From NCBI GenBank assembly GCA_037043015.1, contig CM073330.1:12046512-12110511 (forward strand): a DNA stretch of 64,000 bases, in the 5' to 3' direction. The notes beneath the pieces were generated by a model. The model was not told where the DNA came from. It was given only the letters and a program-made list of their open reading frames with translations, and ran no database searches. How positions within the stretch are numbered: the first letter of the stretch is position 1; each line of letters opens with the position of its first letter. The position numbers and the translations under genes are program-made. The DNA is from Bryum argenteum (lineage: Eukaryota; Streptophyta; Bryopsida; Bryales; Bryaceae). Positions 24,738 to 60,675 of the stretch are shown here, in pieces.

Positions 24738-24844
24738 TGTCACTTGCTAGTTAACCCTTAAACGCCCAAGCATGTCACTTGCTAGTTAACCCTTAAACGC
24801 CCAAGCATGTCACTTGCTAGTTAACCCTTAAACGCCCAAGCATG
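24738..24844. repeat. 35-bp tandem triplication containing a TTAA-element end
   Basis: Three identical units (TGTCACTTGCTAG, TTAA, CCCTTAAACGCCCAAGCA). TTAA occurs at 24751, 24786 and 24821. The third unit runs into element b. Confidence 0.9.
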
Positions 24845-24896
24845 CCCCTGGAGCTTGCTTTTCAGTGTATTTTCAGAGGGGCTAGGCATTTAAGGG
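24825..24896. mobile_element. TTAA-flanked MITE b (72 bp)
   Basis: Ends CCCTTAAACGCCCAAGC and (reversed) CCCTTAAATGCCTAGCC; TTAA at 24821-24824 and 24897-24900. The smallest member of the piggyBac-like family in the window. Confidence 0.75.
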
Positions 24897-25257
24897 TTAA
24901 GGTCATTCAAACAGTGGGCTTCCTACCCAGTGGGCTTCTACAAATCAAGAAAATAATGGATGAACAACGTGAAGAACAGTAATAAGTCACTTTATGGCAC
25001 AAGAGGTCATGAGGTGCATTTAGCCATCGCACCATTGCAACATACCATATCATGCGTAAAAGGAGGCGATATAAAGGATAAATACTAGTTACAAAAGTAC
25101 CGATGCACAGCAAACGGTTTCTCAACAGACCTCTCTTACAATTTCAGCTTTCTTACAGCAACCTAGATTGATGTCACCGAACTCCAGAATGAAAAAAAAC
25201 CAGCCAGAAAAGAAAAAAGGGTACAGCCTAGGGAGTGGGGATCGTGGTTTCCGATAC

Positions 25258-28200
25258 TCAGGCAGCAGGTTGACCTGGAGCTGCTCCACCCGCAAACTTA
25301 CTGAACATTTTGGCGATTATTGGTGCTACCTTCGGATTTCCTTGATGCTTGGCCAAATTGGCGGGGTTCTTCATTACTGCATCACCAGAACGAGAACGTG
25401 AGAAGTCAAAAGAGTCTACGATGATAAAGAATCTTGTATAGATTGCAAAACTCGTAGCACGTCTCTGTAGATCATTACATGCAACGCTCTTGATTGTGAT
25501 GGTGCAATTATTTCCTCTTTTCAACGAATTAGCAAAATTTCATAGCGAGAACGAGAACGAGAACGTCAGAAGTCAAAAGAATCAGCGATGATAAAGAATC
25601 TCGTATAGAATACAAAAGCCGTGGCACGTCTCTGTAAATCACTACACGCAACCCTCACTATGATGATTAAGCAATTATTTCTCTCTCTATGTTGAAGGAG
25701 ATGGAGTCATTCTTCAATTTCAAGGCGATGAAGTTTAAGATGGGTATCAAAACTCAAATTTGAAGATGGAGTTATCAGAAGTGTGTAGTTGAAGAGGTTT
25801 GAGGTACAATACCATCTTGAAGTGCTGCCATGACATCCGGATCTGAGAATGCAGCCATAAGCTCTGGGTCCTGCTTGTGGAGGTTCGACACGGTTAGCAA
25901 TTACGACAAATGGAGCTCACTGAAACGAGTTTTGATTGAATAAGCGTATGCAATTCTTACATTAAGAATCTTGCTCATATCGATACCTCCTGGGCCGCCT
26001 CCGCCCATCCCTGGCATTCCTCCCATTCCTCCCATACCCGGCATACCACCCATACCTGCAGGCATGCCTCCCATGCCTCCCATACCCGGCATACCACCCA
26101 TACCTGCAGGCATGCCTCCCATGCCTCCCATACCTGGCATACCACCCATGCCTCCCATACCTGGCATTCCACCCATGCCCGCAGGCATGCCCCCTGGAAA
26201 ACCTCCCGCTCTAGGTGAACCGCGAGGAGGTGCTGCAGATTCTGCTTTCTTGGCTCTAGCATATGCTGCCTGCGAGTACAAACAATTCACACGTCTACGA
26301 ATAACTTCCAAATGCCACGATATGAACCCTGAACTGCCTCACCAGGTAACCAGAATAATGGCTCAAATTTCAAAATAAAAAATCTGAAGTGAAGTTAGGC
26401 ATGCAAGCAATTCGGAAATAGGAGGATTGATCATACTCGAATCATTATTTTTGGACCTTCTTCGGTTATGATAGATTTATGAAGTTGAACTTATAACTGT
26501 TCCTACAATGAGGAACATTGTATGACGTAGTCTAATATGTTCATGGAGAGTACATTGAAAATCAGCCTTTGAAGCTATTATGTACATCCTGAATTAATTC
26601 TAGTGGGCCATTTTTGGGACTGCGCCAGTTTAGAGTAGTCGAACTGTACTCAGCGTCAGTTCTTGAACTTGAGAGTATAATGAGTGAATTACCTGAGCCT
26701 CAGCACGGCGCGCTTCCCTTTCGCGAGTAGCCCTCTTCTCATCCCGTTCTTTTCGCAGGCGATCGTACTTCCTTTTGTGTTCTTCAATTTTGTGCACATT
26801 AGGCTCGACCTACCAGAATCGAAATGGATCAGAATTCTATCACAGTGCTGGAAAGTGGAAACTAGAGGTTTTCCATGTCTAGAAGCATTGCAAATCCTGT
26901 AGAGATGAGAGTCGAAAGACTACCTTTTTAAGAACCTTGGCAGTATCCTCATCGTAGTCAAGCCGACACGCCAAACGTAAATCCTTGGCTGCTTCTTCCC
27001 ACTGGCCTAACAGTGCTTTGGCCTCACCTCTCCACTTGTAGCCCTTTGCAGAATCTGGGTTGATCTGTCGCAAATATTCCAAGCTTAGCCACATTGAACA
27101 AACTCAAGATTGAAATCGTCAAACTACTGAAATGCACAACAATCGAAACTTAATTTCCTAGTTTCAGACGCCCATAAAGGTAACACAGTCAAGCCTTCAA
27201 AATGGAAAGAACAAAGACAAAGAAGTAAGTATATTGAGTAACGGTATCAGGAATACGAAGCTAAATGTTGCTACAAAACAAGGCGAACAAATGAGATCGA
27301 ATTCCTTGGTAAGAGCAATTCCGGAAATAAAAAGAGTGTGAGGTAGGAATGCATGATCAGATTCACCAAACACTATCTATTTCCCTTACCTTGATGGCAG
27401 CGTCAGCATCCCTGATGGCAGCGTTCGGCTTCTTCATTTTGACATACACACCAGCTGTTGGAAACACAACGACTTGATTACCATCTAATTCACTACTTGA
27501 AGATATACATAACATATGAATTCACTAACTTAGCAATTACTTATTGAGAATGATAAGATTTTAGTAGTTGACCTTAACGTACGGCCTATATTTCTGCCTC
27601 AATCACAGAGAGGTTCAGGAAACCTAAAGAAGTGAGAAATGAGAAGGCCCGAAGCTGTAATCTTCGAGTTCCTGATGATATTCCTCAAGTATTATCGTAC
27701 CTCGGTTAGCAAATAGGATGGCTGAATGCGGATTGCAGATAATAGCTTCCGTGAAATGCTCAAGTGCTACGTCCAACTTTCCTGTAACCAGTGATAAAAT
27801 TACCATGAGATTTTAGTAGCCACCCACTCAGTCCACGGAATCGTGCCTTAAAAGACGTCGATCCTTGAAACTCTTATATACATGAACCATCAGAGCCATT
27901 ATTCAGCAAGTTAATCCTGACAAAAATACCTTCGGACATGGCCTCTACGGCTTTGCCCTTCGAAAGCTGAGCCTCGTCCATCTTCTCTTCAGTCACCTCC
28001 ACGTTTTGATCACCCATCTGTTAAGAAATGCATAATGATTATGAGCTTCAAAGCAGATTCCGTGATATTTCTGGCTTTGCAACAACTAACGAGCCGGAGA
28101 AATAGATAATAACAGAATCTTAAGACTATGAAGCTTGCCTTCTGCGGAGGCTCGTCGTCAGCATCCACAACACCCTCATTGTCTAACTCGAGATCTGACT

Positions 28201-30504: not shown

Positions 30505-30705
30505 ACCAAAAGTGACCCACTACCCCTTAACTCCACTTACCTCCATCCCCTTAACCCTCACTTCTTCCCTTATTCCTTTGTATTTCCTTCATCCCCTCAC
30601 CCACCACCTCTTAATTCTTATCCACCTTATCCAATTGCCATGTGGCAAATTAATAAAACAAAATAAGAAAAAAAATCTTAAAAAAAGTCAACCTAACTTA
30701 ATTAA

Positions 30706-31679
30706 CCCCTAAACGCTCCAGCCTATTTTTAGTAGAAAAGCACATTTCCATAAAAATTGTCATAGATGAAAATGAAGAGAAGCTATTAAGATCTCAACCG
30801 TACAAACTTGTAATAGACTTATCGTAGATCATGTGGACCAAAAGTTGAGTCATGAGGCCTTATAGATCGGGAGATCATAACATATTAATACTAAAAACAA
30901 ACTGCAAAATTTCATCATTTTCACTTTGAGGTGGAAATGCTACCAATATATCTATTGCAATGAAAAAATCACCAACTAGAAAGATGTTCACCTTCATCTT
31001 AATAAATCCTTTACCCAACACAAATTCATCAAAAAGATTTCTTGGCTCAAATAAAAGCCATGCAATGGTAATAACTACCGAACAATTTACAAAGGAAAAA
31101 TAGTCCAAAACTAGACCCTTTGCATTCAATTTCATGCCTTATCTTCAAAACATCTTCGATCTTGTTAAGGTTTCTAGCACTTAGACTACACTCTAATTGG
31201 AGGCCATCCCAAAAAATAAAGTTGAAATCCAACAGTGGATGAGGGAGATATAGCTCCTCAAACATCATCCAATTTCTCACTTTTTCTGTTGACAAAACAT
31301 CATTGCAAATCCAATAGCAAAATCATTTGAATCAAAAAACTTCTCACTACAAAGTTGTTAAAAATCACCTTAAGATCATGACCATGAAAAAACATAATCA
31401 TGAAAAACTATTTTTAATTTCACATAATTGGCTTGCAACAGTAATACATGCTCCATCCTTGTAAACCCAAAAACAAGAGCTGTCTTCACTAAAGTGCATT
31501 CCATTAATTCATACTTTATTTTATGGGCTTGCAAATTTAACAACACAAGCTAGACTTGATTTGGAACCTAACCCAAGTGATTTCATCCAAAACGGACCTC
31601 GGATGAAGAAGATATGGCTATTCAAAGTTGTTGCCTTCCATCCAAAATGTCGTTTTTCGACATTCGGCGCGTTTAGGGG
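30706..31679. mobile_element. TTAA-flanked MITE v (974 bp)
   Basis: Ends CCCCTAAACGCTCCAGC and (reversed) CCCCTAAACGCGCCGAATG; TTAA at 30702-30705 and 31680-31683. The right sub-end CGTTTTTCGACATT is shared with elements m and p. Open frames inside (30875-31295) look like chance AT-rich frames. Confidence 0.8.
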
Positions 31680-31840
31680 TTAAATAGTATACAAAGGTGC
31701 TTTTGTTGGTTAGTTTTATTTTTTTAGGTAAAGATATTTATAAATTTAGTATCTTAATTAATGAAAAGTTATTAAAAAAAATCTAAATAGCATCTAAATT
31801 AATTAGGGGTAAGAGGGGGGGAGCTGGGAATACAGTGGGA

Positions 31841-32679: not shown

Positions 32680-35600
32680 CACTATAAGAAAACCATCAAA
32701 TTTTGGATGTCTTAAATAAAACATCTAAAGTCGATTAGACGTCTTAAAAATGACTTTTAGACTAAAATTTGGGTTGGTGTCTAAGAAGACATCAAGAAGA
32801 CATTTGAAATACATAAAGATGTCTTGGAATATATGATGTCTTGGAATAAAGGTAAACTTGGGAGGGTAAGAAGTGAGTCACGTGGAGGACACATTAGCGC
32901 CATGTAGACGGGCAGTGCCACATGACGATGAATTTCATCCTGATGTGGAGTTTTCTGTGGTCAATCAAATAATGACGTGGCGGCGCCAAAATCCAACGTG
33001 GATCCGAGAAAATCTGACGTAGCATCCGGGAACATCTGATGTGGCACCCAGGAAAATCCAACGTGGCATGCCACGTCAGCATAGCTTTGACTGCTTTTAT
33101 ATTGAAATAATGGTCATTAAAGACATTGAAAGACATCTGAGGTTGTCTTACGAGACATATGAGGATGTCTAATGAGACGTTTTACAATGTCTTCTGAGAC
33201 ATTTTACAATCTCTACGGTGATGTGTTTAGTAGTGCAAGCGCCTCGTCGAAGCTGTCCACTTAGACATCGTAGTGATTACTTTTCATATTGCACGATGTC
33301 TTAAATGATGATTTGCAAGATGTGTATAGGATGTTTACTGTGGTCTTAGTGTCTTACAAAATGTTCTATAAGATGTCATATATGATATTTTGAAGATGTC
33401 TGCAAGGATGTTTTGGAGGTGTTTTTTGTGATGTTTCACAAAATGTTTTATAAGATGTCTTCAAAGACGATGTCCCTCCATGATGTTCCTCCACTACCAT
33501 CGCTTGCGGTCGATACTTCTACGGTCATGTGCATGTCCTATCGCTGCACATGTTCAATAAGTCAATATCGACTACATTTAAACAAGGGGTTTGTAAAAGC
33601 AAAAAATTGTGATTTAGTTCCATTTTATTGCACTATCTAGGTTATGATGGTTTTCATCATGACCTCAAGATATTCTTGCGGACATCTGCTTAAACATTCG
33701 GGCAAACTTCCTTGAAGACATTTTTGAAGACATCATTGAAGACAACGTCATAGACATTCATACATACATTTGTTCGCGGCGTTAGATCATGTTTTGCTCC
33801 CTCTTCGCAGTTGTGAAAATACAACAACTCACTTACTTTGGCATACTTTTTCTATGTTCATGTGTTTTCTAAGCTTTTCTTACCATCGTACGGGGACCTC
33901 GACCCCTCATATTCCACCCTACAAAACAGAATTCAATGATCAACACAATTAGACAATTTTTTAGACATTTTCATAGACATGCTCTAAGACATTTCTGCAG
34001 ACATCATCATAAACATCTGATCTGGCATACTTCTTCTATGTTCATGTGTTTTCTAAGCTTTCCTTACCTTTGTACAGGGACCTTATCCCCTCATGTTCCA
34101 CCCTACAAAACAAAATTCAATCAACACAATTACACATCCATTTAGACATCTTCATAGACATGCTCTAAGACATCCGTGCAGACATCATCATAAACATCTG
34201 ATGACATTTTCAGGTTATCAACCACAACACATCTACTATAGAAAGTTTTTTGTTTCCTCCACAACAAATCAAGTTCCTAAGTTCCTTCCTCAACAAAGCA
34301 CGTATTGTAAGTCATAGAGTTTATTCCATAATAAGTTTTAGGGTTTTTTCCACAACAAATCAAATACTACAAGTCCTAGGGTTTCTTATACATGCTGCTT
34401 TTAAAATCTACCTGTTCTGAAGTAGTGCATGTTCATGGCTCTTTTTACAACCACTATTCTCTTAATATTGTACTTAACAATCATTTTAAAATTGAATGGA
34501 AACAATTTTGAAATCCTCTACACTTCAAACACTAATTCCTTGGAGAATTGAGGCAAAAATGAGCTTTGTCCAACTTCTACTTCCACTTAAAGGTCTTATA
34601 ACCTAACTATGGCGGCGGCAACAAACCCTAGCTACATGAAGAAGCAAACCCTAGCCTCTACACTCTAAACACTAACCCCTTCAAAAAATGAAGGCAAAAA
34701 TGAGCTTTGTGCGGCTTCTACTTCTACTTAACCCTTAAAGGTCTGAACAACCATATTTAGGTTGCTGGAATACAGCGTATTTTGGTTGTATTGGAATGAG
34801 TGCACACCTTTAATAGATTTGAGTTCAAAGAACAAGTTGACATATAAATCCATGCGGTTCTACTAAGCTTTTAAGATCACAATATAGAGTTTCTTGTTGG
34901 TAGCAAATCTCAATTATACGCCACCGTACATACTATCTCCAAGGGACCTTTAAGGGTTAAAAGTCTCGTGACCTATCTATGGCGACAGCAGCAAACCGTG
35001 GCGGCCTCTGTTCATCCACAGAAGTCGATTCCAATAACACAATGTCTTCTAAGATGTTTTAGAAGACATCTTTTGAATGTCTACGAAGACACTCCATAGA
35101 CAATGTATGACATGTACCCTTGTTTAACGTGGACTTTTGTTTACCATGTAGATAATCAGCTGTAAATTATGAAATTAATGAAATATCCACGTATAATTTT
35201 GTTCATGAATATTCAAAAATTGCGGTATATATTTAAATAACTATATTTTCTAACTAATTAAATAATAACTAATAATAATATTCAAATATTTTACTAATTA
35301 ATAATAAATTTTTATAATTTTTTGATTTATTAAACTATTTTATTAATATTTATTATTAAAATATTCTCAAATATTTCTATAATATATATTTAAAATTAAA
35401 TTATAATATCTAAATATTATTATAAAAATTGGACCAATGAAAAAATCTGAAATTACAAGATTAATACTATGAATTTCATATTTCAATTTTTAGTTGTACA
35501 AAATAAAATCATAAAATTATAATGCACAAATAACTAAAGAGTATTTAAAAGGATGAAGTTCTTTCTTTTTCCCTCATACAAACCGCTGCCCATTATCATG

Positions 35601-35906
35601 TTTTTTTAAAAACCGGGCTACTTTCTACCTCTGTACTGGTAACTTTCAAAAAATTCACTTGGTGAAACCGGAATTTTTTGCCAAAGTGGCAGTTTCATGT
35701 TTAACGCGATGTCTTAATAGACAGCTTATAAAACATCCACGTATATTTGGATGTCTTCAAATCATCCCACACTCCTACTTGAAGACATCTTTAAAACGAC
35801 AAGATATCTTCCCATCTTACAAGACATTTTGCAAGACAACAAGACATCTTAAAAGTGATCTTCCCAAATCTTAAGACATCTAAAATTTGATGGTTTTCTT
35901 ACAGTG
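32680..35906. mobile_element. non-autonomous CACTA element (CACTA-1, 3.2 kb)
   Basis: Begins CACTATAAGAAAACCATCAA; the right end reversed begins CACTGTAAGAAAACCATCAA, with the match continuing about 36 bp. Target duplication TGA at 32677-32679 and 35907-35909. Both ends are packed with AAGACATC / GATGTCTT subterminal repeats, as expected for En/Spm-type elements. No transposase is recognised. The interior has a 187-bp tandem duplication (about 33843-34210) and another near 34536-34730, plus a GTGG-rich stretch (32880-33080). Confidence 0.93.
34732..34956. mobile_element. TTAA-flanked MITE d (225 bp), nested in CACTA-1
   Basis: Ends CCCTTAAAGGTCTGAAC and (reversed) CCCTTAAAGGTCCCTTG; TTAA at 34728-34731 and 34957-34960. 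The neighbouring tandem-duplicate of the host sequence has one TTAA at 34587-34590 and no insert, so it serves as an empty site. Confidence 0.92.
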
Positions 35907-37364: not shown

Positions 37365-40000
37365 ACTTACCGTATGTCCTTCCAAATTTGAAGTCTTTCA
37401 AAACACATAGTAGAAAACATGGATTTCATGCATCATAAATTTCTATTTCAAGAAAAACAAATACATATGCACAAGTTGATTTACTTTCTCGACTAATAAA
37501 ACAAAGTGGCTTGAGAGAATTTATGGAATATTTGAAAACTTATAAAACATCACTAAATGATTAAGTTGATTTCATTGTTTGAAAGGAATTTTAAGAGTCC
37601 CTTATAGCATTTGAGGGTTAAGTAAATGCTATGATCCAAATGCTGACAGCGATAATATTGGACAATATTGAAATAAACGGGCCAATAGTCAGTGGACAAT
37701 TCAAATGAAAGGGAAGACAAGAAGTGACGTAAAGAAAGGGATGTCACTTGAGCATGCAACAAATGGGCAATGTCAGCCTGTACATTTTCATACCATGTAT
37801 GTTTTCACCTTTTTCATTTCTTGCATCAATTTTTGCATTAGAATTGTTAAATGACATTAGGGGTTATACATCTTGGTCAAATTATCTTGGTCAAAGGAGA
37901 AAATTTGAATTTTATTTTGGAAAATCTACAATTCCAAAAAGGATTCACTCTTCAGCTTCCCAGTGAGATAGCCGATCTGCAGTTTCTAAGCCACTTACCG
38001 TATGTCCTTCCAAATTTGAAGTCTTTCAAAACACATAGTATAAAACATGGATTTCATGCATCATAAATTTCTATTTCAAGAAAAACAAATACATATGCAC
38101 AAGTTGAATTACTTTCCTGACTAATAAAACAGACGTGACTTGACAGATTTTATGGAGTATTTGAGAACTTATAGAACATCACTAAATGATTAAGTTAATG
38201 TCATTGTTTGAAAGCAATTTTAAAAGTCCCTCATAGTATTTAAGGTTTAAGTAAGGGCCATAATTCAAATGTTGACACTGGCAATGTCGGACAACATTGA
38301 AATAGACTGCCAATGGTAAGTGGGAAATTCAAATGGAAGGGAAGGCAAAGTGACATAAAGAAGAATTCAAATGGAAGGGAAGGCAAAGTAACCGTAAAGC
38401 AAAGGGATGTAGATGGGCATGCAGCAGATGGGCTATGTCAGCCGGTACGTTTTCACACCATGTGTGATTTTCATCTTTGCATCAGTTTGCATCAGCTTTT
38501 AGTAAATGTGATTTTCATCTTTGCATCATCTAGAGCCCATGTGTGATTTTCATCTTTACATCATCTAAAGGCCAATAGGATCAGTATGTTGTTGTAGATC
38601 TCCCCGTACTGGCCAAGGGCCTGTGTTGCCAATGGCACACCATGTATCTTATTTTATTCTATCACCGGGAATGGGATTCAACTACATCAGCTTTTGTTGA
38701 ATGACATCTCGGTCAAAGGGGAAAAAAAAAGAATTTTATTCTACAAGTTTGAATCCAAATTGTTTCTTAATTTTTGCGGCTGATGGACGAAGGATGGAGC
38801 GGTTGGTTGTTAAATTTCTTTCTTGGTTGGTTGTTAATTTTTCTTTCTTGTTGGACGGAGATTCTTAGTGTAAGTTGTGTGCGGAAGTAGAAGAACTAAC
38901 ATTGTCTTGAGGTTGTATGTTTACTAATCATATGTCTTCATTTGAGCCAAAAAATACTAAAAAAAAATATCATAGTTATGAGTTAAGTGGAACGTATGAA
39001 TGTTAATTTAAAGAGCTTGTCTCTCATATTCATTTGTATCAAGGGCATCGTATATACACAGTCTTGTGCTTTTGGGGGGACAACATCCTTGTGCAATTTT
39101 TTGCATAGAGCTTTATTATCGATGCATGGCAAGTTTAGACTTACAAATAGAATGCTCTTGTGGGTAGTAACTAGGCTAGAAACTAGCATAGTTATAGTGT
39201 CCACCCTCGAGAGGGGGAAGTAGTATTGTTCCAATTTCCCCTTGTCCGGTGGCCATCGGGATATTAGCATTACGAACGGACACTTCATTCACGCCGGCCC
39301 CTTAGAAAGGGACCGGAGTTTCTATCTATCTCTTGTGGGTAGATTTTACTGTAGTAGAAATGTTTGCAATTTCCATCAGGCTCTCCACTAGTGTTTTTGT
39401 CAAGAATGTTTTAGTAGTGATGAAATAAGTAACTTCAATTTTGTGGAAGTGCACACCTATCCATCAGTGTTACCCTATACAAAGAAACGTTGACAACATA
39501 CAATGGCTTGTACTTAAAGGCGTACCACACAGCTGGTAGAAGAGCATATGCGAGGAATGCGAATGGTCGATGGTTGACTCTACTCCAGAGGTAGTTTTGT
39601 GGTAGGAAGTTTGACGAAGCTTGTCAGCTAGCCGCGGTGAAGCGGTGAATGATGCCTGTAAATGCTGGTTTCCGCCCAATGAGCACCGGGCTCATGCGTT
39701 ACATTCTGTTGGCAGCGGCTTTCCGTTTAGTTTTCTGTACTCAACTTAATTGCGACGACCTTTGTTGAAGCTAAATCATTTTGCGCACACATACTCTCCT
39801 TTTCTCCCACGCACTTTGCTCTATGGATACGCATAGACCTTCATCACAAATAGGTGTTGCCAATGCAAAGGATGTCTCCACCACCAATCCTCTTGTTAGG
39901 TGGAGCAAATCAATCCTCTTGTCCGGTGTTCAACGAGGGTGTTCAACGAGGCGACATTACTCCTCCGCCATTTGTCCACGGTACTATTCCTCTTCTTCCA
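37365..40000. repeat. segmental repeat unit A
   Basis: Non-coding unit beginning CTTACCGTATGTCCTTCCAA (37365), whose first part is itself duplicated at about 37990-38560. It continues through a GGTTGGTTGTTA-type segment (38750-39167), a retroposon insert (39168-39331) and a segment ending near CACGCACTTTGCTC (39812). Most segments recur in unit B in the same order. Confidence 0.75.
39168..39331 (+). mobile_element. SINE-like retroposon, copy 1 (5'-truncated)
   Basis: 164 bp starting TAACTAGGCTAG and ending GGAGTTTCTATCTATCT. Target duplication of 11-13 bp (CTCTTGTGGGTAG, 39155-39167 and 39330-39342). Nearly identical to 60719-60882, one difference seen. Compared with copy 2 it lacks about 43 bp at the left, which is the 5'-truncation expected of target-primed retroposition. 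Confidence 0.85.
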
Positions 40001-44383: not shown

Positions 44384-44891
44384 CCCTTTTCATTGCGTTG
44401 AACCTTAGGTGATGATGAGCTAAAGTAGGAATCTTATCTTGGAAAAAGCTTGATGAAAATGGTGTAGTGTTTCTAGGTAGCGAAAGTTCATTTTTGAACC
44501 TCCACTCCTTGCACAAATTCTTTGAATATGCTACACCCCTTCTTTACTTCTAAAAAATTGTGAACAAGGAACTAATATCATGATAAACATAATGTTTATG
44601 AATTTAGACTTTGTATAGTGTAAAATTTTGACACGAAGTGAAGTCAAAGTCTGCTGATCCACTCAACACAGGGAAGAAAATGAACTTTTTTTCCTACTTC
44701 AAACACTATAATCTTTCAATTCGTGTGGTCAAATTCAATGAAATTTTGTGAGTAGGTTACTTATTAGTTCTTAGTGGAGATCTTATGGTTAGGAATGAAA
44801 ATAGAAGTTTTTATTTCCTTCCTTACTGATGGCACTAGAATCAGCAGGTTTGAAGTGTGTTTGATGTGAAATTGACAATGAACTTTAGGGG
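44384..44891. mobile_element. possible decayed TTAA-family element g
   Basis: Left TTAA then CCCTTTTCATTG; right end reversed CCCCTAAAGTTCATTG, followed by TTAC. It contains AGATCTTATGGTTAGG, the internal motif common in the family. The ends are degraded, hence the low confidence. Confidence 0.4.
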
Positions 44892-45287
44892 TTACAATCA
44901 ACTTACTTGCACGGTTTCATCATAGGAAAGGTTGGGGTTCTGCATGATATTCTTGTCCAAGATGTTGGCAGCTACACCAAATCATACAATAACCATACAC
45001 AAAAAGAACAATCATACAAAAAACATCAATAGAAGATGAACTAAGAAATTACTTGCAAAGTAAGGCAAAGACTTTGGTCAAGAATTTTGATCTCTTTTAG
45101 TTATAGAAATTAGCTTTGAAAGAGCTCTGGGTTTCCTATAATCACCACAAGGAGGAAAGAGGCAACTAAGATTCATGCCACAACATGACCTCTCTTTTGT
45201 TCATCTTAACCCTGTAAGGACAATATCTACAATTAGGCCTATGAATGGTCACAACGGGTACATTCCATCACGACAAATCATTTCATC

Positions 45288-45555: not shown

Positions 45556-45759
45556 CAGTTAGCACATTTCTTTTGGAGTGGTCACTGCAATCGGTCTTAA
45601 GACTTCAGGATACATCTCAAGCGTATTTGTTGGAGACGCAAGGTTTCCATTATCTTAAATTAGTTTTTAAATCAAACAAAGATGAAGTCTAGATCCACCA
45701 AATTCACAAATTACTCCAAAAATTAACCACCTATGAGCTTCTCATCCTCGAAGGGTTAA

Positions 45760-46691
45760 CCCCTAAAGGACCCAGCGTTTTCTGGACCTCCAAAACCAAA
45801 AACTGCAATTTTGGACCACCTTGTACACGTTGAGGTATAGTTCAATTTAATTTACATTCTTTGTATTTCCAACCATAAGATCTTGAAATTTACTACCTGC
45901 ACTAATACCAAGTAAAATTTCAACTGCTGGATCTTTACCAAGTGTAAGATCATAACGTTCAAAGTTGACTAAAAAGTTTTTTTGGGCTTTGCGTGAAAGA
46001 CATAGTCCAAATGGTGCCAAGGGAGACTTGATGATTATTACTCCAAACATTTTGCTCATATTTTTTCCCATGTAGGTAATCAAGTTGGCTACGCTCATGC
46101 AAAATTTTAAGGACTCATTCCGCTTTTTGGACCTTCGTGCAAAATATTTTCTAAGAGAAGGTCTAAAAACAACGATTTAGTAAAACTTGCATATTATTAA
46201 GTATATTTGGTTCAATCAAAGATCCGAACGGTGAGTAGGTGCCTTTATGAGTTTGTGAGTTTTGGGAAAAAAAAATTGGGAAAATTCCCAAATCTCAAAT
46301 TTTGAAATTTTTTGTAAGAAATAATTCAAAAATTACTAGAAATTGAGAAGATTTGTTTTGTAAACTTTGGAGGCTGCCCTTGTGAAATTGACTAACTTTT
46401 TGACTTAGGTCACTTTGGAACTTGAACAATGATTTGGTTATGAAAATGAATCTAAAAAAAAAAAAAATCAAAAAAAGTCTAAATTTAAACTGCCGTATTT
46501 GGACTTGAAACCTAAAATTTCTAGATGAAGGTTCTAAAATTAGAATTTGGTTTTGAAAATTTTAAGGCGTACACTTTGCGGTATACGGAGCACTCTGTAA
46601 AAATCTTAGGAAAAAATATTACTTTTAACCCCTTCATCTAGGCTGCCCGAAATTGCAAAAATCAGAATTCACTTTCTTGGTCCTTCAGGGG
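45760..46691. mobile_element. TTAA-flanked MITE h (932 bp)
   Basis: Ends CCCCTAAAGGACCCAGC and (reversed) CCCCTGAAGGACCAAGA; TTAA at 45756-45759 and 46692-46695. Inverted, diverged relative of element k, which is also 932 bp. Carries CCAACCATAAGATCTTG at 45869. Confidence 0.88.
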
Positions 46692-46727
46692 TTAATGGTA
46701 GCTAGAACTATTTTTAACTTAATCAAC

Positions 46728-47516
46728 CCCTAAACACTTAAGGCATTTCCACACCAAAAACTCTTTAAGACTGCCATTTTCAGCTCATCCAACACAAAAT
46801 GATACAAAAAATTATTTGTAAATGTAACTATAGGATCTTGTAATGAAGTTGTATGAGAGTGTGTGGCAAAATTTTGGAACTTCCGACCGCATGGATTGGA
46901 AGATTTTTGAAGTGAGACAAAAAGTATTTATGAGGTCATACTAAACACCATTAGCAAACTTTGACCACCTTTTATGACATTTTTTTGCACCACATATAAT
47001 GATTTTCTATTTTCAACCAATAGAGGATCATGTTAGGTGCATGTAAATCTAATTTTTGAAGTAGAAAAGGGATAGAAGATGTCATAAAAAATCTTGCAAT
47101 GCAACCATGTGTTGAGAGCTAACAATACACTAACAAGTTTTGCATATAACATATTCTTTCACATTTTTAAAATTCAAAAATCACTACGGTAGATGCAAAC
47201 ATCTGTAAATTCTTTCAAGGAAGAAATGTTTCTTTTTAATAATGAACCAAATATATAATTTCTAATGAATTAAAAAATTTATTAGAGTTTTTCTACACTA
47301 TTTGTCATTGGTCGCATGAAATTGGTGTACTATTTACATATGTCATCGAAAATCAGTTGTAACTTTTGAACCATAAGTCGGTTTTTTACAAAAATGATAT
47401 TTTCGGAAAGCTCATAAAAAATTGGCCATTTGATATAAAAAAATCTCAGAAAATTTGAGAACGTGGTACCCTATCCAAATTCAAAACATCCGGGGGGAGC
47501 ATCAGGCCTCTAGAGG
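46728..47516. mobile_element. possible TTAA-family element i (789 bp)
   Basis: Left end CCCCTAAACACTTAAGG after TCAA, right end reversed CCTCTAGAGGCCTGATG before TTAA. Interior has TATAGGATCTTG and the same style of AT-rich sequence. Ends are diverged. Confidence 0.5.
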
Positions 47517-47651
47517 TTAAGAGATTACCAAGTTCTTTAATTGATTGAGGAAAGAAATAGTAATTGAAATAAGAAGAGATGGTATTTTGAGTAACTTTGA
47601 GTGACATGATGAATCTACTTACAAAAGTTTTGCTCAGTAGGAGGTTTGAGG

Positions 47652-49160: not shown

Positions 49161-49454
49161 TAAAGTGATAACCATGAGGTTTAACCATTTTTTTCTCACA
49201 TTTTATTAGTGAAATTATTACTGTAAACTCTCACCGGGGGAAAGGTGGCTAAGATTCACATGAGAAATTTGGATAACGTGAGAAGATTGCATGACACTGA
49301 TAGATGATACCTGTCATCCCAGTTGCCAGAAGGCCAATGCGTTTGGTGATAACAAAGAGATGAATATCATAATGCTTGACCGGTCCAGCAGCTTGTCCTT
49401 CAAGGGCAACACAAGAAGAGGCTAAGTAAGTTATTCTATTTAAATTCTACTTAA

Positions 49455-51717
49455 CCCTTAAACGCCCTTGGGGTCTGAAATGGGCAGCCCAAAATTGGAT
49501 CACAACATCTTTTGGACTTGGGCATCATGAATAGTGCACTTTTTGAACTAAGGCATTGTGAATGAACCAATCAATGATGAGCTTGCAACCTCCTACAAGG
49601 TTATGTACAGTACCCACCAACAAGTTTACGTTCAGGAATGAAAGAAGAGATCATGCCCCAATCTTCAAACAATTCCCATGTTCACAAAAATAATCCAAAT
49701 TACCAACTACAAATTGTATCGGAAAGATGATGTAGTATTCTATATCATCATTTGAAGAAATTCCAATAAAAACTTGAAATTCTATCTTAACCCCTAAAGA
49801 TCCAAGAGGACCAAATCGGGCTTTTGCTATTTTGGGCAGCCTAGATGAATAGGTTAAAAGTAATACTTTTGCCCAAATTTTTTAATGGGTGCTCCCTATA
49901 CTGCAAAGTGTATGTGGTAAAATTTGCAAAGCCAAATTCCAATTTTTGAGTCTTCTACGACAATTCTTGGTTTGCGAGCCGAACTGGGGCAGTTTAAATT
50001 TAGTATTTTTTTGAGATTTTTTTTTGGAAATATGTTCATGACCAAATTACTACTTGAGTTCCAAAGTGAGCTAACTCAAAAAGTTTGTGAATTTCACAAG
50101 GGCAGCCCTCAAAAATTACAAAAACAATCTTCACAATTTCTAGTAATTTCTGAATCAACTCTTACAAAATTTGTCAAAATTTGAGGTCTTGGAATTTTCC
50201 CATTTTTTTTTTTTTCTCAAATTTCACAAACTCATAAAGGCACCTACTCGCCGTTTGGATTTTTAATTAAACCAAATATATTGAAGGAAATGCATGTTTT
50301 ACTATATCAATGTTTTTAGACCTTCTTCTAGGAAATAATTTGCATGAAGGTCACACAAATGGAATGAGTTTCCAAAATTTTGCATGAGAGTACCCAACTT
50401 GATTATCTACATGGAAAAAAATATGGGAATTATGTTTGAGGTAACAATTTTCAATTTTACCTATGCTCCATGGAAACAATGTCTCACAAGCAATGCCCAA
50501 AAAAACTTCTGCACCAACTTTGAATGTTAAGATCTCACAAATGGTGAAGATCCAACGGTTGAAATTTCACATGGTAGTACAAATAGTAGGTAGGTTTGAG
50601 ATCTTACGGTTGAAAGTACAGAAAAACAATAAATTTTTTGACCATATCTCAATTCGAACAAGGTGGTAGAAAATCACAGTTTTTGGTTTTGGAAGGCCAA
50701 AAAACGCTTGGATTTTTAGGGGTTAATATACAGCTTTTTAACATATTATCTACTATTTATCCTTAGCTCTTATTGAAGCTACTATTGCTGAGGCATGAAA
50801 CAATGAAAACCTTCAACCATCTCTAAAGAAAGCTATTTCGATACACTTTCTATATCCGCAACTCTTTTTTAGAAAAAGATTGAATTGTACCCCCCATGAA
50901 GCCCAACATTGAACTTTTGTACTCTAAGTAAATGTCACGGTAAACAAAAGCAACTTCAAGTGATCATAACTACCACCTCGAATAACCAAATTCCATGACA
51001 CTACCACCAAAGTGCTTGAAATGTAGCCAACGCTATCAAAACTAATTGCTTTCGTGCTAATCCAAGCCTCATGTGTAAGAAAAGGTCATGAGCAATCACC
51101 GCACGTTAGAATGTGTATGTAACTTTTTCAATAAGAGACAACATCAAGGTCTCTCACACTAACTCACCTCAATATTTGTGAATGTAAGACACATATATGT
51201 AAAGGGCATCAAAAGAGGTTGCTAGAGAGATATTTATACTCTCTTTCCCAACAAACCTCACCATGAAATGATCTTCATAACATCTAAAGGTAGATACTAA
51301 AAGTAAGTTAAAAGATACTAAAGTTATCAAATCAATTTACACTTTTTATAGAGATTTTTCATGCATTGGCAAAGAAAAATTCACTACCTTACTCTCACAC
51401 TTCATAATTTGCAATTTGGATAGAATTTACAAACATGGTGATCATTTGAAATTTGGGGGTATGTTATCTCTTCTTGCTCTGAACGTAAACTTCTTAGTGG
51501 GTACTGTACAACCCCAACCTACTTACCACAATCCTTTCAAAGCACAAAATCATTCATACAAATTGTGATTTGAATTGTGAAATTTCACTTTTTAAATGCA
51601 TGAGAAGAAGGTGACCAGTTTGACATCAAAATATAAGTGAAAAGTTGAGTACAGTGAGAGCTACAGGGAAGATTCTCTTGGAATCAAGCCCCTCCGGCTT
51701 GCTTGGGCGTTTTAGGG
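49455..51717. mobile_element. large TTAA-flanked element j (about 1.3 kb plus nested k)
   Basis: Ends CCCTTAAACGCCCTTGG and (reversed) CCCTAAAACGCCCAAGC; TTAA at 49451-49454 and 51718-51721. The two halves are partly inverse to each other (a block near 49610 containing ACGTTCAGG is inverted near 51475). The right part recurs at 21210-21437. No transposase recognised. Confidence 0.8.
49791..50722. mobile_element. TTAA-flanked MITE k (932 bp), nested in j
   Basis: Ends CCCCTAAAGATCCAAGA and (reversed) CCCCTAAAAATCCAAGC; TTAA at 49787-49790 and 50723-50726. Inverted relative of h. Carries AGATCTTACGGTTGAAAG near 50600. Confidence 0.88.
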
Positions 51718-51979
51718 TTAAACTTGAGAATATCTATGATAAATCATGGCAGTGAACTAAGCATTCACACTACAGTACCGGCACTTTCTTCTGCGTAACA
51801 ACACATACTGAGTCTCTGCCTCGGACTCCAATTGAAGTGATCCCTGTGGCTTTCACTGCCTTGAAAGCATATTCTTCGCCAAGATTTTTTTTAAAATTAG
51901 GTTAAATTAGTCCAAAATTTCATCAGGAAATTCCTTAGGTTGAAGGATGTCCAGATGTTATTACTTCATGTTTGATTAA

Positions 51980-52186
51980 CCCCTAAAGGAGAGTGGCCTC
52001 AAAAGTGCCAAAAGTCCTCAAATTTGCCCTCTTTTGATGCAACATGCAAATTTATAATCTTTGACAAAATTTGAAGTATGTAACCATAGGATCTTGTAGC
52101 TAACTTGTATGTACTCGTGCATACCAAATCTTAGTTTCGGATTCCTCACCATTTGTGAGATCATAACATTTAAAGTTGAAAAAAAA

Positions 52187-52221
<35 letters not shown>

Positions 52222-52829
52222 CCATGTTGTAGGATGGCAAAGTAAAGTTTTGGGGGCCAAAAATTTGACATGAGGCTCTTCAAATTCTTGTTCCTAGGTG
52301 GGTAAGGAATATGTCTATGTAATTTTTACCCTCTTAGGACCTATAAAACTTGAAGAAAAGCTTGCTTTTTCACATGGAGGTATGCTGAAATTGAAATACA
52401 AAGGCTCCATTTCGACAATCAAAAAGGCATGTGAAAAATTCTTGGATTGGAAATCCAAACGGTGAGATTATGCCTTGGTACTTCTTCTACATGCCCAAAA
52501 AAGAAAACTTGAAAAAAAGTAAAATTTCAATTTTTGGTGAATTTTCAAATTTTCTGCGTTTTAATTGATTTGGGGCAGATTTTGAGAATAAATGAGCATA
52601 TACCGCAATTTGGGCAGTTTTGGGCAGTTTTCAAATAGTGTTTTCAAACTTTGAATGTAAATATCTCCTAAAGTATGAGGAATTTTGAAGCATGAAATGA
52701 CTTTTCGGAAAGGTATGGGAAAACTCTACAATCCTCAAATAACTCCAACTCCATACTGTCTATATTTAGTAACTGCGAGGCTGACCAGAGTCAAATCGAC
52801 CCGCTTCGGGTCGATTTCTCCTTTAGCGG
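51980..52829. mobile_element. TTAA-flanked MITE l (850 bp)
   Basis: Ends CCCCTAAAGGAGAGTGG and (reversed) CCGCTAAAGGAGAAATC; TTAA at 51976-51979, TTAC at 52830-52833. Contains a long T-run (about 52190-52221). Inverted copy of n; at 52561-52564 it has a single TTAA where n holds a nested insert. Confidence 0.85.
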
Positions 52830-52989
52830 TTACACCAGTTAACCAGTTAACTGGTTAACTAATTCCGCATCTTTGTTTTTCACATACAATGTCATTTGAG
52901 ACCCCAACTGGCTTATTTTGTCGGTTTTGCGTGCCTCCACCTTCGTTCAGAAGATCTTTGGCTCAGGGACTCATTATTAGTGTTCATGT

Positions 52990-54267: not shown

Positions 54268-54548
54268 GCAAATTCACTGTAAACTTGGGAGCTTCCACTC
54301 AGTGCTTTGTCTTCCAATCTTTCATTCTTGGGTGTGGTCAATATAAATTTTATGGTTGGGAATGGACATTTTGGTCCAGAGTAGATAGAAAATTAAGCTT
54401 ATTGTTCACTTTGGGAGGTGCCCTTTTCTAATGGAGGAAGTGCCTTGCTACCCTTTCACTGAGGATTGAGGATGGGCAACAACCCTTAGCATCCTCTCCT
54501 ATTCCTCTGGCTCTATCTTGTATAAACACAGCTCTCTTGAATACTTAA

Positions 54549-54976
54549 CCCTTAAGCGCCCACAGTGTCGTTTTTCGACATTTTGGATGTGAGGCTCCGT
54601 CTTTGGTGCACAACCCCGCTTTCATCCCATCGATTTTTCATCCACCGTTTTTTTTTGCTCAACTCCTCGGTGGGTTTACTCTACTCCTTCATTGAATAAA
54701 TAGTAAAAACCTTGATCCTCAATTTGTGAGAGTGGGCAAAAGAGATTTTTCATGAAAGTTTTGGTGGTGTGATCTTCTCTCCTTTTTTGCATGGATCTTG
54801 AAATCCATACCTCCAAATGGCATACAACTCGGCGGTCATACTAATTGCCATGCTCCAAAGAAGATCCTACGGTTGGATTTTCCATTTTCATCTTTTAATT
54901 GTTTTTACGCAGTTTTGAAAAAATCAGCATTATTACCAATTGTTAGGAGCTTTACCCCCCCTTGGGCGTTTAGGGG
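54549..54976. mobile_element. TTAA-flanked MITE m (428 bp)
   Basis: Ends CCCTTAAGCGCCCACAG and (reversed) CCCCTAAACGCCCAAGG; TTAA at 54545-54548 and 54977-54980. Inverted copy of p (59399-59801). Carries AAGATCCTACGGTTGGAT at 54861. Confidence 0.93.
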
Positions 54977-55318
54977 TTAATTCATGGAGACCGATCCTGG
55001 TGATTTTGCTCAACTGATTCTTTCCACAATTGGTCATGATCTCTCACGTTCTTTGAATGCATTCCAAGCTCCTCGTTAGCTTCTTTCCAATCTCCAATCT
55101 ACGCATGCACTAGCACACTACAGCGATTTCTGTGTGAAGTGGGGTTGTACTGAAATGTTTCCATTATGTATTAATCCATTATGATGTTGTGCTGAATTTA
55201 TCATGTAGCCTTGTGGATTCCCTTTGGCTCTCATGGTCCACTCAGGTGTTACAGGGTTAAGTTAACTACCTAGGTGATACCCATTGTGCCAGATCCACTG
55301 TGACTCGGAAAATTATTT

Positions 55319-55715: not shown

Positions 55716-57345
55716 TCAGCAGCACCACCGTCTACAACAATTATAGACTGGTTGGCAGCAATAAATGACTGGTTGGCAGCAATAAATGACTGGTTGGCAG
55801 CAATAAATGACAGTGTTATGTATATATTGTACCACAACCTTGGCCTTCTTGGCACACTTCTTCTTCAGCGAGTCACACTGTATCATTTACCATCCATTTG
55901 TTCAATCAGTCATCAAATTGATGAGCAAAACCATTTGAACATTCTCAGCATGCCTTTTGTGTATTTTTACAATCATGGGTTTAGTGAATATAATTACTAA
56001 GGACTGACAGAAAAGTATGACTTATTTTCTCCTTTCTTGACCCTTAAACGTCAGTCAGGAACTGTATGTACTCGTAAGTATTGAAGTTTAGCAAGCACCA
56101 GCTTACACCTTTGGATCAACTAACATCTTTCTTTCATTTGAAGGTCATTTCAATCAATCATGTCCAAATATGACACCATAGACATAGAATATAGTGGCTA
56201 CCCACTGGCACCATGCGATGTTTAAGGGTCAACCCTTATACGTCATAGCAACCCACTGGTAGTCACTGCACTCTACATGTGTGGTGTTGTTTTTGAACAT
56301 GATAAGGTTCAGTTTGATTGAAATGACCTCCAATTGAGAGATGTTAGGTGAAGGATCTTCAATCCAAAGGTGTCAGGTGCTTGCTAAAGTATTTGATGCA
56401 TGTACTGTATACTACGGAGTCAAATACGTTCCTGTATTTACGGTTCCCATCTGACGTTTAAGTGTTAATCAACAGATTTCAAGAGTTCGAAGTGAAAAGT
56501 TCTTGCAGATGATAGTAACAAGGACATAAGAAGTACCTCATCTGCTTTTTTACAGAGCTTGGCGCAGCAGCAGTTTTTGCACTTCTTCTGTTTATGGATG
56601 AGACAGCATGTCAGCTTGTCCTTCTCCTTCTTGCACTTGTCCAACTCCTTCTTGCACTTGTCCAACTCCTTCTTGCACTTGTCCAACTCAATCTCCAAAT
56701 ACTTGATCTGATCAATCAACCAAGCCTACAGTTAGAATCATGTCTAAACAGTTCTCACTTATCCAAGCAGAGGAAGAAAAACTCGTGAATCTGTAACCAT
56801 ATACTTCAAAAGGTGCCACTAGTGACCACAGTATTCTACATGTATAGTGCCGTATTTGAACATGATAAGGTTTAGAACCTCAGATTGATTGAAATGACCT
56901 CCAAATGAAAGATGATGTTAGTTGAAGAATCTCCAATCCAAAGGTGTAAACTGCTTCCTAAGTATTTGATATATACATGTACTGTATTCTACGTGCCTGA
57001 ACATTCGGTTAACCAGAAGAGGAAGCTGCATACCTTCTCACTGGCAGGCTTGTAGTTCCTCTTGCACTTCTCAAGCTCCTCCTCCAGGCCCCGCTTCTCA
57101 TCCTTGAGCTTGTCCAGCTCACCCTCGTCGCCGGAGCTCCTCTTGCACCTCTTGAGCTCGTCCTCTAGGCGCGTGTTCTCCTTCACCAGGCGCGTGTTCT
57201 CCTCCGTCAGTCTCTCGTTCTCGGGCCTGGTAGTCTCCACGACGATCCACCAAGTCATTATCAAGTTCCACAACGAGGAGAAGGAATGTTTTCTCTCCCT
57301 ATCTTTTATCTCTTGCAACGTAGGCATCACATTGTCATCCCCCAT
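55716..57345 (-). CDS. novel Cys/Lys-rich coiled-coil protein, 3 exons
   Basis: Exons in gene order 57034-57345, 56537-56725, 55716-55877; GT-AG junctions, all phase 0, 220 residues. Exon 1: a hydrophobic run (SLWNLIMTWWIVV, about 24-36) then heptads (NERLTEENTRLVKENTRLED). Exon 2: three copies of LDKCKKE, then a Cys-rich cluster (CKNCCCAKLCKK). Exon 3: CDSLKKKCAKK then three copies of VIYCCQP and a NCCRRWCC end. Both peptide repeats come from 21-bp DNA tandem arrays (about 56625-56690 and 55744-55806). No family recognised; a membrane-anchored coiled coil or metal/disulphide-rich protein is possible. The second intron holds MITEs r and s. Expression is unproven. Confidence 0.6.
56041..56228. 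mobile_element. TTAA-family MITE r (188 bp), intronic
   Basis: Ends CCCTTAAACGTCAGTCA and (reversed) CCCTTAAACATCGCATG. The flanks are TTGA and TCAA rather than TTAA, probably decayed. Directly abuts element s. Confidence 0.65.
56233..56464. mobile_element. TTAA-family MITE s (232 bp), intronic
   Basis: Ends CCCTTATACGTCATAGC and (reversed) CACTTAAACGTCAGATG; left flank TCAA shared with r, right flank TTAA (56465-56468). A related segment without clear ends lies at about 56800-56990 in the other intron (both have GATTGAAATGACCTCCAA), and a fragment lies near 58990. Confidence 0.65.
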
Positions 57346-57422
57346 TGTCGCTAACCTCTCCTACAACCTGGGGCAGCTGAGAAAGATACAAAGGATACAA
57401 GGGAAGAGAAGTGATGGGAGAT

Positions 57423-57450: not shown

Positions 57451-57607
57451 TGTTAAAAATCACATGGGAAATGACGTATAAGTGAAGGCAACTTTCCATT
57501 CGTACGTTGGACTTACCATAAGCGATTTGCTTTGTGGTGGAGTAAAAATTTCAGTCTGAATTTTTATGAACAGGCACGTGGTTTCTAGTACACTGAAAAT
57601 GCATTAA

Positions 57608-58982
57608 CCCCTAAAATGGAGATGACCCGAATCGGGTCGATTGCCTTCTGGTCAGCTTGTGTTGATTCGAATATCTATCTCATGAAGTTCGAACCATTGG
57701 CAGGTTGTAGAGTTTTTCGATACCTTTCCGAAGAGTCATCTCATGCTTCTAAATTCTTCATACTTTAGGAGATATTCACGGTCAAAGTTTGAAAACACTA
57801 TTTGAAATCTGCCCGAAATTGCCCAAACTGCAGTATATGCTCAAAATCTGCCCAAAATTGATTAACCCCTAAGAGCCCAATCGACCATTTTATGGTCGAT
57901 CCCGAATTTTGAGGAGGTGTACCTGGATTGAAAAAGAATTTTTTTGGAATTTTTTTTAACATTCCAGAAGTTTGATAAGTTGGGAATGACATCCAATTTA
58001 CAAAACCCTGTTTGGATTCATAGATTGTTCAGAATAAGCCTTCAAACACAAACAGGGCAAAGTTTTCTTAGTGTAAAAAAACTTACTATTTTGGGAAACT
58101 AATAAGGTTCCTCATAAGTTACTTGTGGCCTCTCTCCATTTTATCATATAATATGTGACTTTAGCCAATCATAGCAATTTCCAATTACTAATAATAGAAA
58201 TTACATTCTATATTGATTTTCAAAGTTTTACTCTCTTTAATTAATTTTGAAACACATCTTACTTATTTTAGGACATTTAATCGTATAGATCTAATTTAGG
58301 GTTTAAGGTCTTTATACTATTGTTAGAGCGCTACTTCATAAGAGTTACCAAATCCATATTTTATAACACATCTAAGTTTTTCTTCAAACCCCTTGGGCCT
58401 TTAGGGGTTAAAACGCAGAAACTTCCAAAATTCACAAAAAATTGAGATTTTACTTTTTTTTCAAGTTTTGTTTTTTGTACATGTAGTAAGGCATGATCTT
58501 ACCGTTCGGATCTTCAATCCAACAACTCTTTGCACGCCTTTTTAATTGTTGAAAATGGGCCTTTGTATTTCAATTTCAGCATACCTCCATGTGAAAGATC
58601 AAGCATTTCTTTAGGTTTTGTAGGTCGCATGGGGGTAAAAATTGCATAGACATGTTCCTAACTCACCTAGGAACAAGAAGGTGAAGAGCCTCATGTCAAA
58701 TTTCCTTTAAAAAATGGTTTTTTTGACCCCCAAAACAATTTTGACTTTGCCATTCTACAACATGGAAAAAAAACTTTTTTTTCAACTTTCAACGTTATGA
58801 TCTCACAAATGGTGAGGAAATTAAATTTTAAGATTTGGTATGCATATACATGTACAAGTTAAGTACTAGATCATACAATTACATACTTCAAAACTTGTCA
58901 AAATTCAAAACTTTACATCTTGCATCAAAAGAGAGCAGTTTTGAGGGTTTTTGGCTGTTTTGAGGCTCCTCACCTTTGGGGG
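57608..58982. mobile_element. TTAA-flanked MITE n (about 830 bp plus nested o)
   Basis: Ends CCCCTAAAATGGAGATG and (reversed) CCCCCAAAGGTGAGGAG; TTAA at 57604-57607 and 58983-58986. Inverted relative of l, including a shared CGACCC palindromic sub-end (GACCCGAATCGGGTCGAT near 57625). Confidence 0.85.
57866..58407. mobile_element. TTAA-flanked MITE o (542 bp), nested in n
   Basis: Ends CCCCTAAGAGCCCAATC and (reversed) CCCCTAAAGGCCCAAGG; TTAA at 57862-57865 and 58408-58411. The matching place in l has one TTAA and no insert. Confidence 0.94.
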
Positions 58983-59398
58983 TTAAAATAAAGCATGGAC
59001 CTTACACCTTTGGATTGAAGATTCTTCAACCAAACATGTTTTTTTTTCTTTTTTCTTTTTTCTTTTTTTTTTTTTTGGACACAAATGAAAAGGAATTTCA
59101 TTCCAAAAAAAACCGAGACCACAACCAAAGTAGTGTTAGGACAGCCAACAACTAATATTCACCTACAAGGAGGCGGAGGACTAAGACACTAAGAACACGA
59201 TGTCGTAGTCCAGTGGTTCATAATTCCTTAAGATAACCAATATTAACCTTAAGCGAGCCCCCCTAACCAGCTGGTTCCAGGAATTTTCATCATGTATTAA
59301 AACTTCCTAGATCTAGAAGAATACAATTACAATACCTTAGCCCACTCGGAAGGGTAGCTTCCCAAGTACTTAGATAATGAGTAACCCCAAGCGTTTAA

Positions 59399-59801
59399 CC
59401 CCTAAACGCCCAAGGGGGGTAATGCTGATTTTTTCAAAATTGAGTAAAAACAAATAAAAGATGAAAATGGAAAATCCAACCGTAGGATCTTCTTTGGAGC
59501 ATGGCAATTAGTATGAACGCCAAGTTGCATGCCATTTGGAGCTATGGATTTCAAGATCCATGCAAAAAAGGGGTGAAGATCACACCACCAAAACTTCATG
59601 AAAAATCTCTTTTGCCCACTCTCACAAATTGAGGATCAAGGTTTTTACTATTTATCCAAGGAGGGAGTAGATTTAACCCACCGAGGAGTTGAGCAAAAAA
59701 AACGGCGGATGAAAAATCGATGGGATGAAAGCCGGGTTGTGCACCAAAGATGGAGGCTCACATCCAGAATGTCGAAAAACGACACTGTGGGCACTTAAGG
59801 G
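59399..59801. mobile_element. TTAA-flanked MITE p (403 bp)
   Basis: Ends CCCCTAAACGCCCAAGG and (reversed) CCCTTAAGTGCCCACAG; TTAA at 59395-59398 and 59802-59805. Inverted copy of m. Carries ATCCAACCGTAGGATCTT at 59474. Confidence 0.93.
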
Positions 59802-59997
59802 TTAAATTGAACTCTGTTGAGCGTCAGAGTAGTTTTCCAGTAAGTTTTTACAATGCCTAAAAAGTCAGTGTGCACAGTTCTCAGATCCCAGAGGCCACAA
59901 TCTAATTCTACACCATGAAAATAGTTAAAGGTTGCAACAAGTTTACTGGATTAACGTATATTCAAGTGAAAGACTGGTAAACTAGTTCTTCAACTGC

Positions 59998-60140
59998 TAA
60001 CCAAGTCGTTCAATGGTACTATTGACATGTGATTTGTTCAACAAATATTCTTCAAATGGTGATGCTAACCAAGTCCTTTTATGGTACTATTGACATGCAA
60101 ATCGATCAACAAATATTCTTTAAATAATGATTCTTGGTCA
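59998..60140. repeat. 62-bp tandem duplication
   Basis: CTAACCAAGTCGTTCAATGG ... ACAAATATTCTTCAAA occurs twice in tandem with a few differences (second copy from about 60065). No coding signal. Confidence 0.7.
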
Positions 60141-60375
60141 AGGCTTACAGGAGGTGGATATAGGAGGTCACCCACTAAACATCAACAACACACTTCAAAG
60201 ATTCAGAACCGATTCACATTTCATTTACAAATATGAAATCAATTGGTTGAACTTATAATTCTATTGATAATAATTGAAAAGTAATCACGTATATTATTCT
60301 AAACAAATCACGTATAATATAATAAATTACACTATTTTATTTTATTTGATTCTCCCATCTCTGCACAGTGCTGAA

Positions 60376-60609
60376 CCCTTAAAGGTCAGACCCAGCCTGA
60401 GGGGTTGGGTTTTTTTTTGAGAGAATCTTGCTCATAACTTACACTCCATTATGCCAAATGGAATTTTTAGAATTCCAAACTGAGCACCTTAAAGAGATCT
60501 ATACTTTCTTAGAATAGAGCTCAAGCAAATTAAAAATAGAATAATGCTAAAAATGGAGTTTAAAAGAGATTTTGGGTGTGGTATCAGGAAAGCATATGAC
60601 GTTTAAGGG
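60376..60609. mobile_element. TTAA-family MITE q (234 bp)
   Basis: Ends CCCTTAAAGGTCAGACC and (reversed) CCCTTAAACGTCATATG; left flank TGAA (mutated), right flank TTAA (60610-60613). Same size class as d. Confidence 0.75.
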
Positions 60610-60675
60610 TTAACCTATTGTTTATGGGAGGTCTTACCAGAGCGAATATTATGACAATAATATGCAAGCATCAAT

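Follow-up and report, generated by a model that had tools for sequence, protein, structure and literature searches.

The window, i.e. the whole stretch of 64,000 nucleotides of Bryum argenteum DNA analyzed here, carries plant genes, among them one for a subtilase on the minus strand at 16476-18797. Among the best 120 of its 3,738 protein matches, the top two stand at 82% and 63%; the first with a name comes from the moss Ceratodon purpureus (59%), further Ceratodon proteins and one from Physcomitrium are found at 50-51%, and a long Cinnamomum protein (41%) is fourth by score. This one gene family points to a moss as the likely host. The long frames at 10261-14676, with zinc knuckles and reverse transcriptase, have, by eye, the look of a retrotransposon of the copia type. 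The region 32700-35900, likewise judged by eye, is rich in AAGACATCTT-like repeats and hosts a 225-bp element listed below; it is perhaps another DNA transposon. A short run of the plant telomere repeat TTTAGGG occurs inside the contig at 47640-47695.

Elements with CCC(C/T)TAAA ends in the window

Sixteen elements with CCC(C/T)TAAA inverted ends were defined from their ends. They are given here without strand assignment, together with a guest of another kind (49608..51506), each with the observations on which it is based:

22512..22863, TTAA/CCCCTAAA element of 344 bp, outside the range of the earlier note; TTAA on both sides, ends matching over 8 bp
24751..24900, 72-bp element at 24825-24896, TTAA on both sides at 24821-24900; ends and flanks
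30702..31683, member of the 972-bp family, TTAA on both sides; 99% identical full-length copy at C6:7257302-7258275
34728..34960, 225-bp element, TTAA on both sides; 97.8% identical stretch in locus L018
42468..42735, member of the 260-bp family, ATAA direct repeat on both sides; ends, flanks and family comparison
45756..46695, member of the 932-bp family, TTAA on both sides; ends, flanks and family comparison
46723..47520, decayed element with TCAA and TTAA flanks; poorly matching ends
49451..51721, member of the 362-bp family enlarged by guests, TTAA on both sides; ends and family comparison
49608..51506, guest inside the preceding element, TA-flanked, with CAGTACCCAC inverted ends; end and flank reading
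49787..50726, member of the 932-bp family nested in this guest, TTAA on both sides; ends and family
51976..52832, element without guest, one good and one decayed end; uninserted form of its relative at 57604-58986
54545..54980, 428-bp element of the family of 59395-59805, TTAA on both sides; ends and family comparison
56037..56468, element with TTGA and TTAA flanks; ends and flanks
57604..58986, host element with a nested guest, TTAA on both sides; ends and its relative at 51976-52832
57862..58411, guest element, TTAA on both sides, TTAA duplicated on insertion; relative at 51976-52832 with a single TTAA there
59395..59805, 403-bp element, TTAA on both sides; ends and family comparison
60372..60613, 234-bp element with TGAA and TTAA flanks; ends and flanks

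The earlier note on this DNA had claimed about 17 such elements at 24751..60613: 15 are recognizable there and one more lies outside. Its description of the ends was borne out, since 16 facing pairs of a plus end and a minus end lie 60-1500 bp apart in the window, and not one of 30 shuffles contained such a pair; the end sequence TTAACCCYTAAA itself, with at most one mismatch, gave 38 matches against a mean of 1.35 and a largest value of 7 in 100 dinucleotide shuffles. As the note had also stated, most elements (11 of the 16) are flanked by TTAA on both sides; the others include one with ATAA on both sides, three with one altered flank, and one with a decayed end. The elements measure 72 to 974 bp without guests and 1.38 and 2.26 kb with them, and their union of about 8.8 kb amounts to 13.8% of the window. 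Neither the pairings 56037-56232 and 56229-56468 nor the lone ends 37605-37621 and 44879-44895 gave a convincing element.

Two local arrangements were observed. At 24751-24900, the left end and flank of the 72-bp element (35 bp) are present in three tandem copies, perhaps resulting from aberrant transposition or slippage. The element at 49451-51721 is a nest three deep, in which a 362-bp piggyBac MITE contains the TA-flanked CAGTACCCAC element, which we take from its ends to be mariner-like, and this in turn contains a 932-bp piggyBac MITE.

Ends, families and target sites throughout the genome

The search of the whole genome for TTAA-bounded ends that the earlier note had proposed was carried out on the 258.8 Mb assembly (25 contigs; length of the first, 44.1 Mb). 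The profile TTAACCCYTAAANGYCC gave 4,530 + 4,531 exact matches, i.e. 9,061 against the 1 (1 + 0) obtained with the reversed control. When the ends were counted regardless of TTAA, 5,154 + 5,156 were found (reversed control 292 + 289, i.e. 581), and TTAA thus precedes 9,061 of the 10,310 ends (88%). The elements of the window and of 20 end-centred loci can be sorted by length into families of about 972, 932, 362, and 260 bp, besides several that are smaller; since these loci were chosen for having a TTAA end, their flanks are no independent test of the preference for TTAA. In the case of the 972-bp element of the window, the copy on contig C6 is its 99% identical partner; 39 other full-length copies were scored, from the top of a list of 6,592 first-look candidates, and every one of them has an identity of 94% or more. 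At positions 5189-5915 of locus L019, two members of the 362-bp family lie head to tail with one TTAA common to both.

The length of the target-site duplication can be read from a pair of relatives in the window. The element at 51976-52832 aligns unbroken (78% identity) to that at 57604-58986 when the flanks of the guest at 57862-58411 are joined over one TTAA, and it has a single TTAA at the point where its relative carries the guest. Genome-wide, 260 ends are preceded by VTAA and 227 by TTAB. The pairing of these flanks was analyzed in 97 of the 100 VTAA rows and 95 of the 100 TTAB rows listed: 27 of the 97 VTAA ends have a facing TTAB partner at the length of an element, where 2.1 would be expected under independent change, and direct repeats were found in all 10 of the VTAA/TTAB pairs with readable letters. 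No VTAA-VTAA pairs occurred, and among the 95 TTAB ends, 2 are paired with another TTAB end. The single TTAA in the uninserted relative and the direct repeats in the VTAA/TTAB pairs establish that the target duplication comprises four bases, not TA, and is targeted to TTAA. Since 70 of the 97 VTAA ends have no TTAB partner, most of the odd flanks are probably later mutations of one flank. An insert of about 170 bp in locus L015, considered as a second uninserted-site case, was rejected as it is not flanked by TTAA.

Transposase genes and complete elements

The piggyBac transposase profile PF13843 (DDE_Tnp_1_7), with which the earlier note had suggested searching, gave 775 first-look candidates, of which 116 were scored; all 116 were above the cut-off (best E 7.4e-82), and none of the 14 control genomes matched. 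No stop interrupts the match in 93 of the 116 rows, and all 10 of the open frames scanned carry PF13843. The stop-to-stop frames, which overstate the length of the protein, range from 447 to 1,331 codons. As the matches are spread over contigs C1 to C11, contamination is unlikely to be their source.

By sequence, the frame of locus L030 matches the solved structures of piggyBac (6x67, E 2e-29) and piggyBat (9c0f, E 7.7e-24). Its aspartates 572, 651, and 764 do not vary among 15 alignment rows, and D767 hardly does; the catalytic aspartates line up with those of the solved piggyBac. The AlphaFold model of this frame has a mean pLDDT of 62.8, with values under 50 for almost all residues up to 229; its best fold matches are 6x67 and 9c0f, followed by Tn5, with 23% identity in the fold alignment. 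A C-terminal Cys/His pattern is present in most of the alignment rows, and zinc-finger matches, all below the cut-off, were obtained in 1 of the 10 sequences scanned.

The 6x67 chain has 594 residues, and many of the frames exceed this length. Residues 225-322 of L030 are predicted, with a pLDDT of 81.7, to form a small beta barrel, the sequence of which recurs in L044 and in the public sequences P0001, P0002, and P0010 (40-64% identity) and is weakly present in L036, L043, and L037 (20-26%). By fold it matches the widespread SH3-like barrels (Tudor, KOW, BAH, PWWP), below the level showing kinship, and a Pfam search with the N-terminal domain returned no family (one match at E 0.25). That the barrel might serve to read chromatin is a guess.

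Downstream of the 20 transposases fetched, the GGG-TTAA rule gave clear ends in seven cases (L029, L030, L033, L036, L038, L043, and L044) and a possible end in L048, and L035 has another possible end, with 2 mismatches; a clear CCC end was absent within about 1.2 kb downstream in 13 of the 20. Seven of these 20 loci were extended, and in five of them the transposase lies in an element of 4.5-5.4 kb bounded at left and right by TTAA-CCC ends:

L030, 5,191 bp between TTAAs, 897-codon frame, ends CCCTTAAACGCCC
L029, 4,942 bp between TTAAs, transposase over two frames
L038, 5,404 bp between TTAAs, transposase over two frames
L036, 5,278 bp between TTAAs, 1,187-codon frame, ends CCCCTCAAGGCCCATG
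L044, 4,461 bp between TTAAs, 915-codon frame

The other two (L033 and L043) have one TTAA-CCC end each, and no second end was found in them. The transposases of L029, L033, and L038 are split over two frames and are therefore either broken or contain an unrecognized intron. At positions 379-614 of the autonomous element read in L030 + L050, an array of 21-bp direct repeats lies near one end, and L029 differs there; this array is possibly a transposase-binding or length-variable region.

These five elements are of the autonomous type that the earlier note had recommended looking for. The L030 ends CCCTTAAACGCCC are identical to those of many miniature elements. In the case of CCCCTAAACGTCC and CCCCTAAAGGYCC, which are frequent among the miniature elements, no identical ends occur in the autonomous copies read, and the ends of one transposase lineage, TTAACCCCTCAAGGCCCATG, gave only 8 matches. 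The 362-bp family matches one end of L030 or L029 over about 36-39 bp at 85-87% and the other end over 30 bp at 93%, and one of its members matches L030/L029 over 111 bp at 68-69%. No other miniature family matched at E 1e-4 except the 72-bp element of the window (30 bp at 90%), and the families of 972, 932, and 260 bp have only short ends in common with the autonomous copies read. The earlier idea that many unrelated interiors had been mobilized is supported in part: these three families share the short ends alone with the autonomous copies read, and the 362-bp family matches terminal and near-terminal sequences of the autonomous elements.

Identity amounts to 97.7% over 4.5 kb between L029 and L030, and to 98.6% over 2.3 kb between L034 and L042. 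A search with L039, in which 50 candidates were scored, gave two sets of frames without stops having equal or near-equal scores: those of one set measure 831 codons and lie at four places (C4, C9, C7, and C8), those of the other measure 786 codons and lie at five (C3, C4, twice C2, and C6). These near-identical dispersed copies point to recent movement, and the equal-scoring frames on different contigs to a recent spread of the transposase genes. The other lineages show 28-35% identity with L030. In a quick tree of 83 rows, 13 of the transposases from this genome form a group (SH-aLRT 99) with 13 public ones and 2 further public ones, apart from 12 animal sequences; own and public sequences are interleaved in this group, with at least five changes of the label "own". 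The tree left out L042, P0002, P0014, P0015, P0022, P0077, P0108, and P0118, which are short or partial, and P0055, which has fewer than 250 filled columns; from P0067-P0120 it used only nine named animal proteins, the named animals P0090 and P0107 not being used.

Origin of the elements and relation to known systems

By the defining features tested, the elements belong to the piggyBac superfamily, and they are almost certainly non-autonomous piggyBac MITEs, mobilized by transposases of this superfamily which the genome itself encodes. By analogy with animal piggyBac, a transposase dimer would bind the CCCYTAAANG ends and cut the element out with hairpin ends; the excised element would then insert at TTAA, and excision would leave TTAA behind. 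The miniature families might arise as internally shortened copies or from unrelated DNA acquiring such ends, and their movement, which seems to be recent, may still continue.

TTAA is also the target of Kolobok and Sola3, to which the ends might belong if the piggyBac genes were unconnected residents of the genome. We consider this very improbable: the fact that PF13843 frames lie between TTAA-CCC ends in five of the seven extended loci, which supports the earlier suggestion that a piggyBac-type transposase has been active in this lineage, and that the 362-bp family resembles the L030 element at either end largely refutes this explanation in the case of the CCCTTAAACGCCC ends. Even less credence can be given to elements of the Tc1/mariner kind that would duplicate the two bases TA and strongly prefer T or A outside them, although TA is contained in TTAA and a TA-flanked guest with mariner-like ends occurs in the window. 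The base beyond TAA is duplicated too, as in the ATAA-ATAA repeat at 42468-42735, and the direct repeats in 10 of the 10 readable VTAA/TTAB pairs refute the two-base model.

A further reading, which is compatible with an origin as piggyBac MITEs, is that the miniatures are mostly old and immobile, having been left by two or more transposase lineages, recent movement being confined to a few autonomous copies. Many copies within a family differ by 5-20%, and several transposase lineages about 30% identical coexist, which favors this reading; the copy on another contig that is 99% identical to the 972-bp element of the window speaks against it, and on balance it seems rather unlikely. To return to the piggyBac MITEs and the transposases moving them, mosses may have, somewhat speculatively, a long-resident piggyBac clade of their own, composed of several lineages, some of them with the N-terminal barrel, which is still moving and feeding thousands of MITEs; if so, this clade would represent in plants a native equivalent of animal piggyBac.

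PiggyBac is best known from animals, and the earlier note was aware of no established family in land plants. This view is not secure: PMC10813416 describes piggyBac as isolated from insects, fungi and plants, and the review PMC8086355 cites a 2017 survey by Bouallegue et al. as counting plants among the hosts. PMC6890710 contains a fern repeat table with 1,230 PiggyBac annotations, and the eukaryotic repeat survey PMC4438587 places PiggyBac among the superfamilies present in all the groups studied, land plants among them; in PMC10619864, the word used is "piggybacking". Among the papers listed by the literature searches, which cover few subscription papers, none was, by its title or the opening of its abstract, a report of native piggyBac in a moss. 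Since two papers name plants among the hosts, no claim to a first case in plants is made here, and an earlier description in plants may exist. The case is strongest in its scale, in the complete elements that contain frames of intact appearance, and in the coexistence of several lineages. A plant genome with more than 100 piggyBac transposase copies, several lineages next to each other, and miniature ends in the thousands would provide a system for asking how plants tolerate and silence TTAA transposons and how miniature families arise. As to applications, the uses in plants described in PMC5505980, on marker excision in rice, and in PMC10794571 rest on the moth-derived transposon; could a native enzyme serve for footprint-free excision in plants?

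The system described here shares with the piggyBac of Trichoplusia ni (6x67), the end spelling of which starts with CCC, and with piggyBat (9c0f) the TTAA target and its duplication, the CCC-starting short inverted ends, and a DDE_Tnp_1_7 domain with three aspartates followed, in most rows, by what may be a C-terminal Cys/His region. It differs from them in its host, which is a plant instead of an animal, in the size of its elements (4.5-5.4 kb, whereas animal piggyBac measures about 2.5 kb), and in its frames, which, as stop-to-stop readings, run from 447 to 1,331 codons with a long N-terminal part in many cases, against 594 residues in the chain of 6x67. The public transposases P0001, P0003-P0013, and P0021, which group with those of this genome, show up to 60% identity with them. 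The piggyBac-derived MITEs of insects and bats are also short elements with common ends and TTAA flanks; here such ends number in the thousands and belong to several length families, in a moss.
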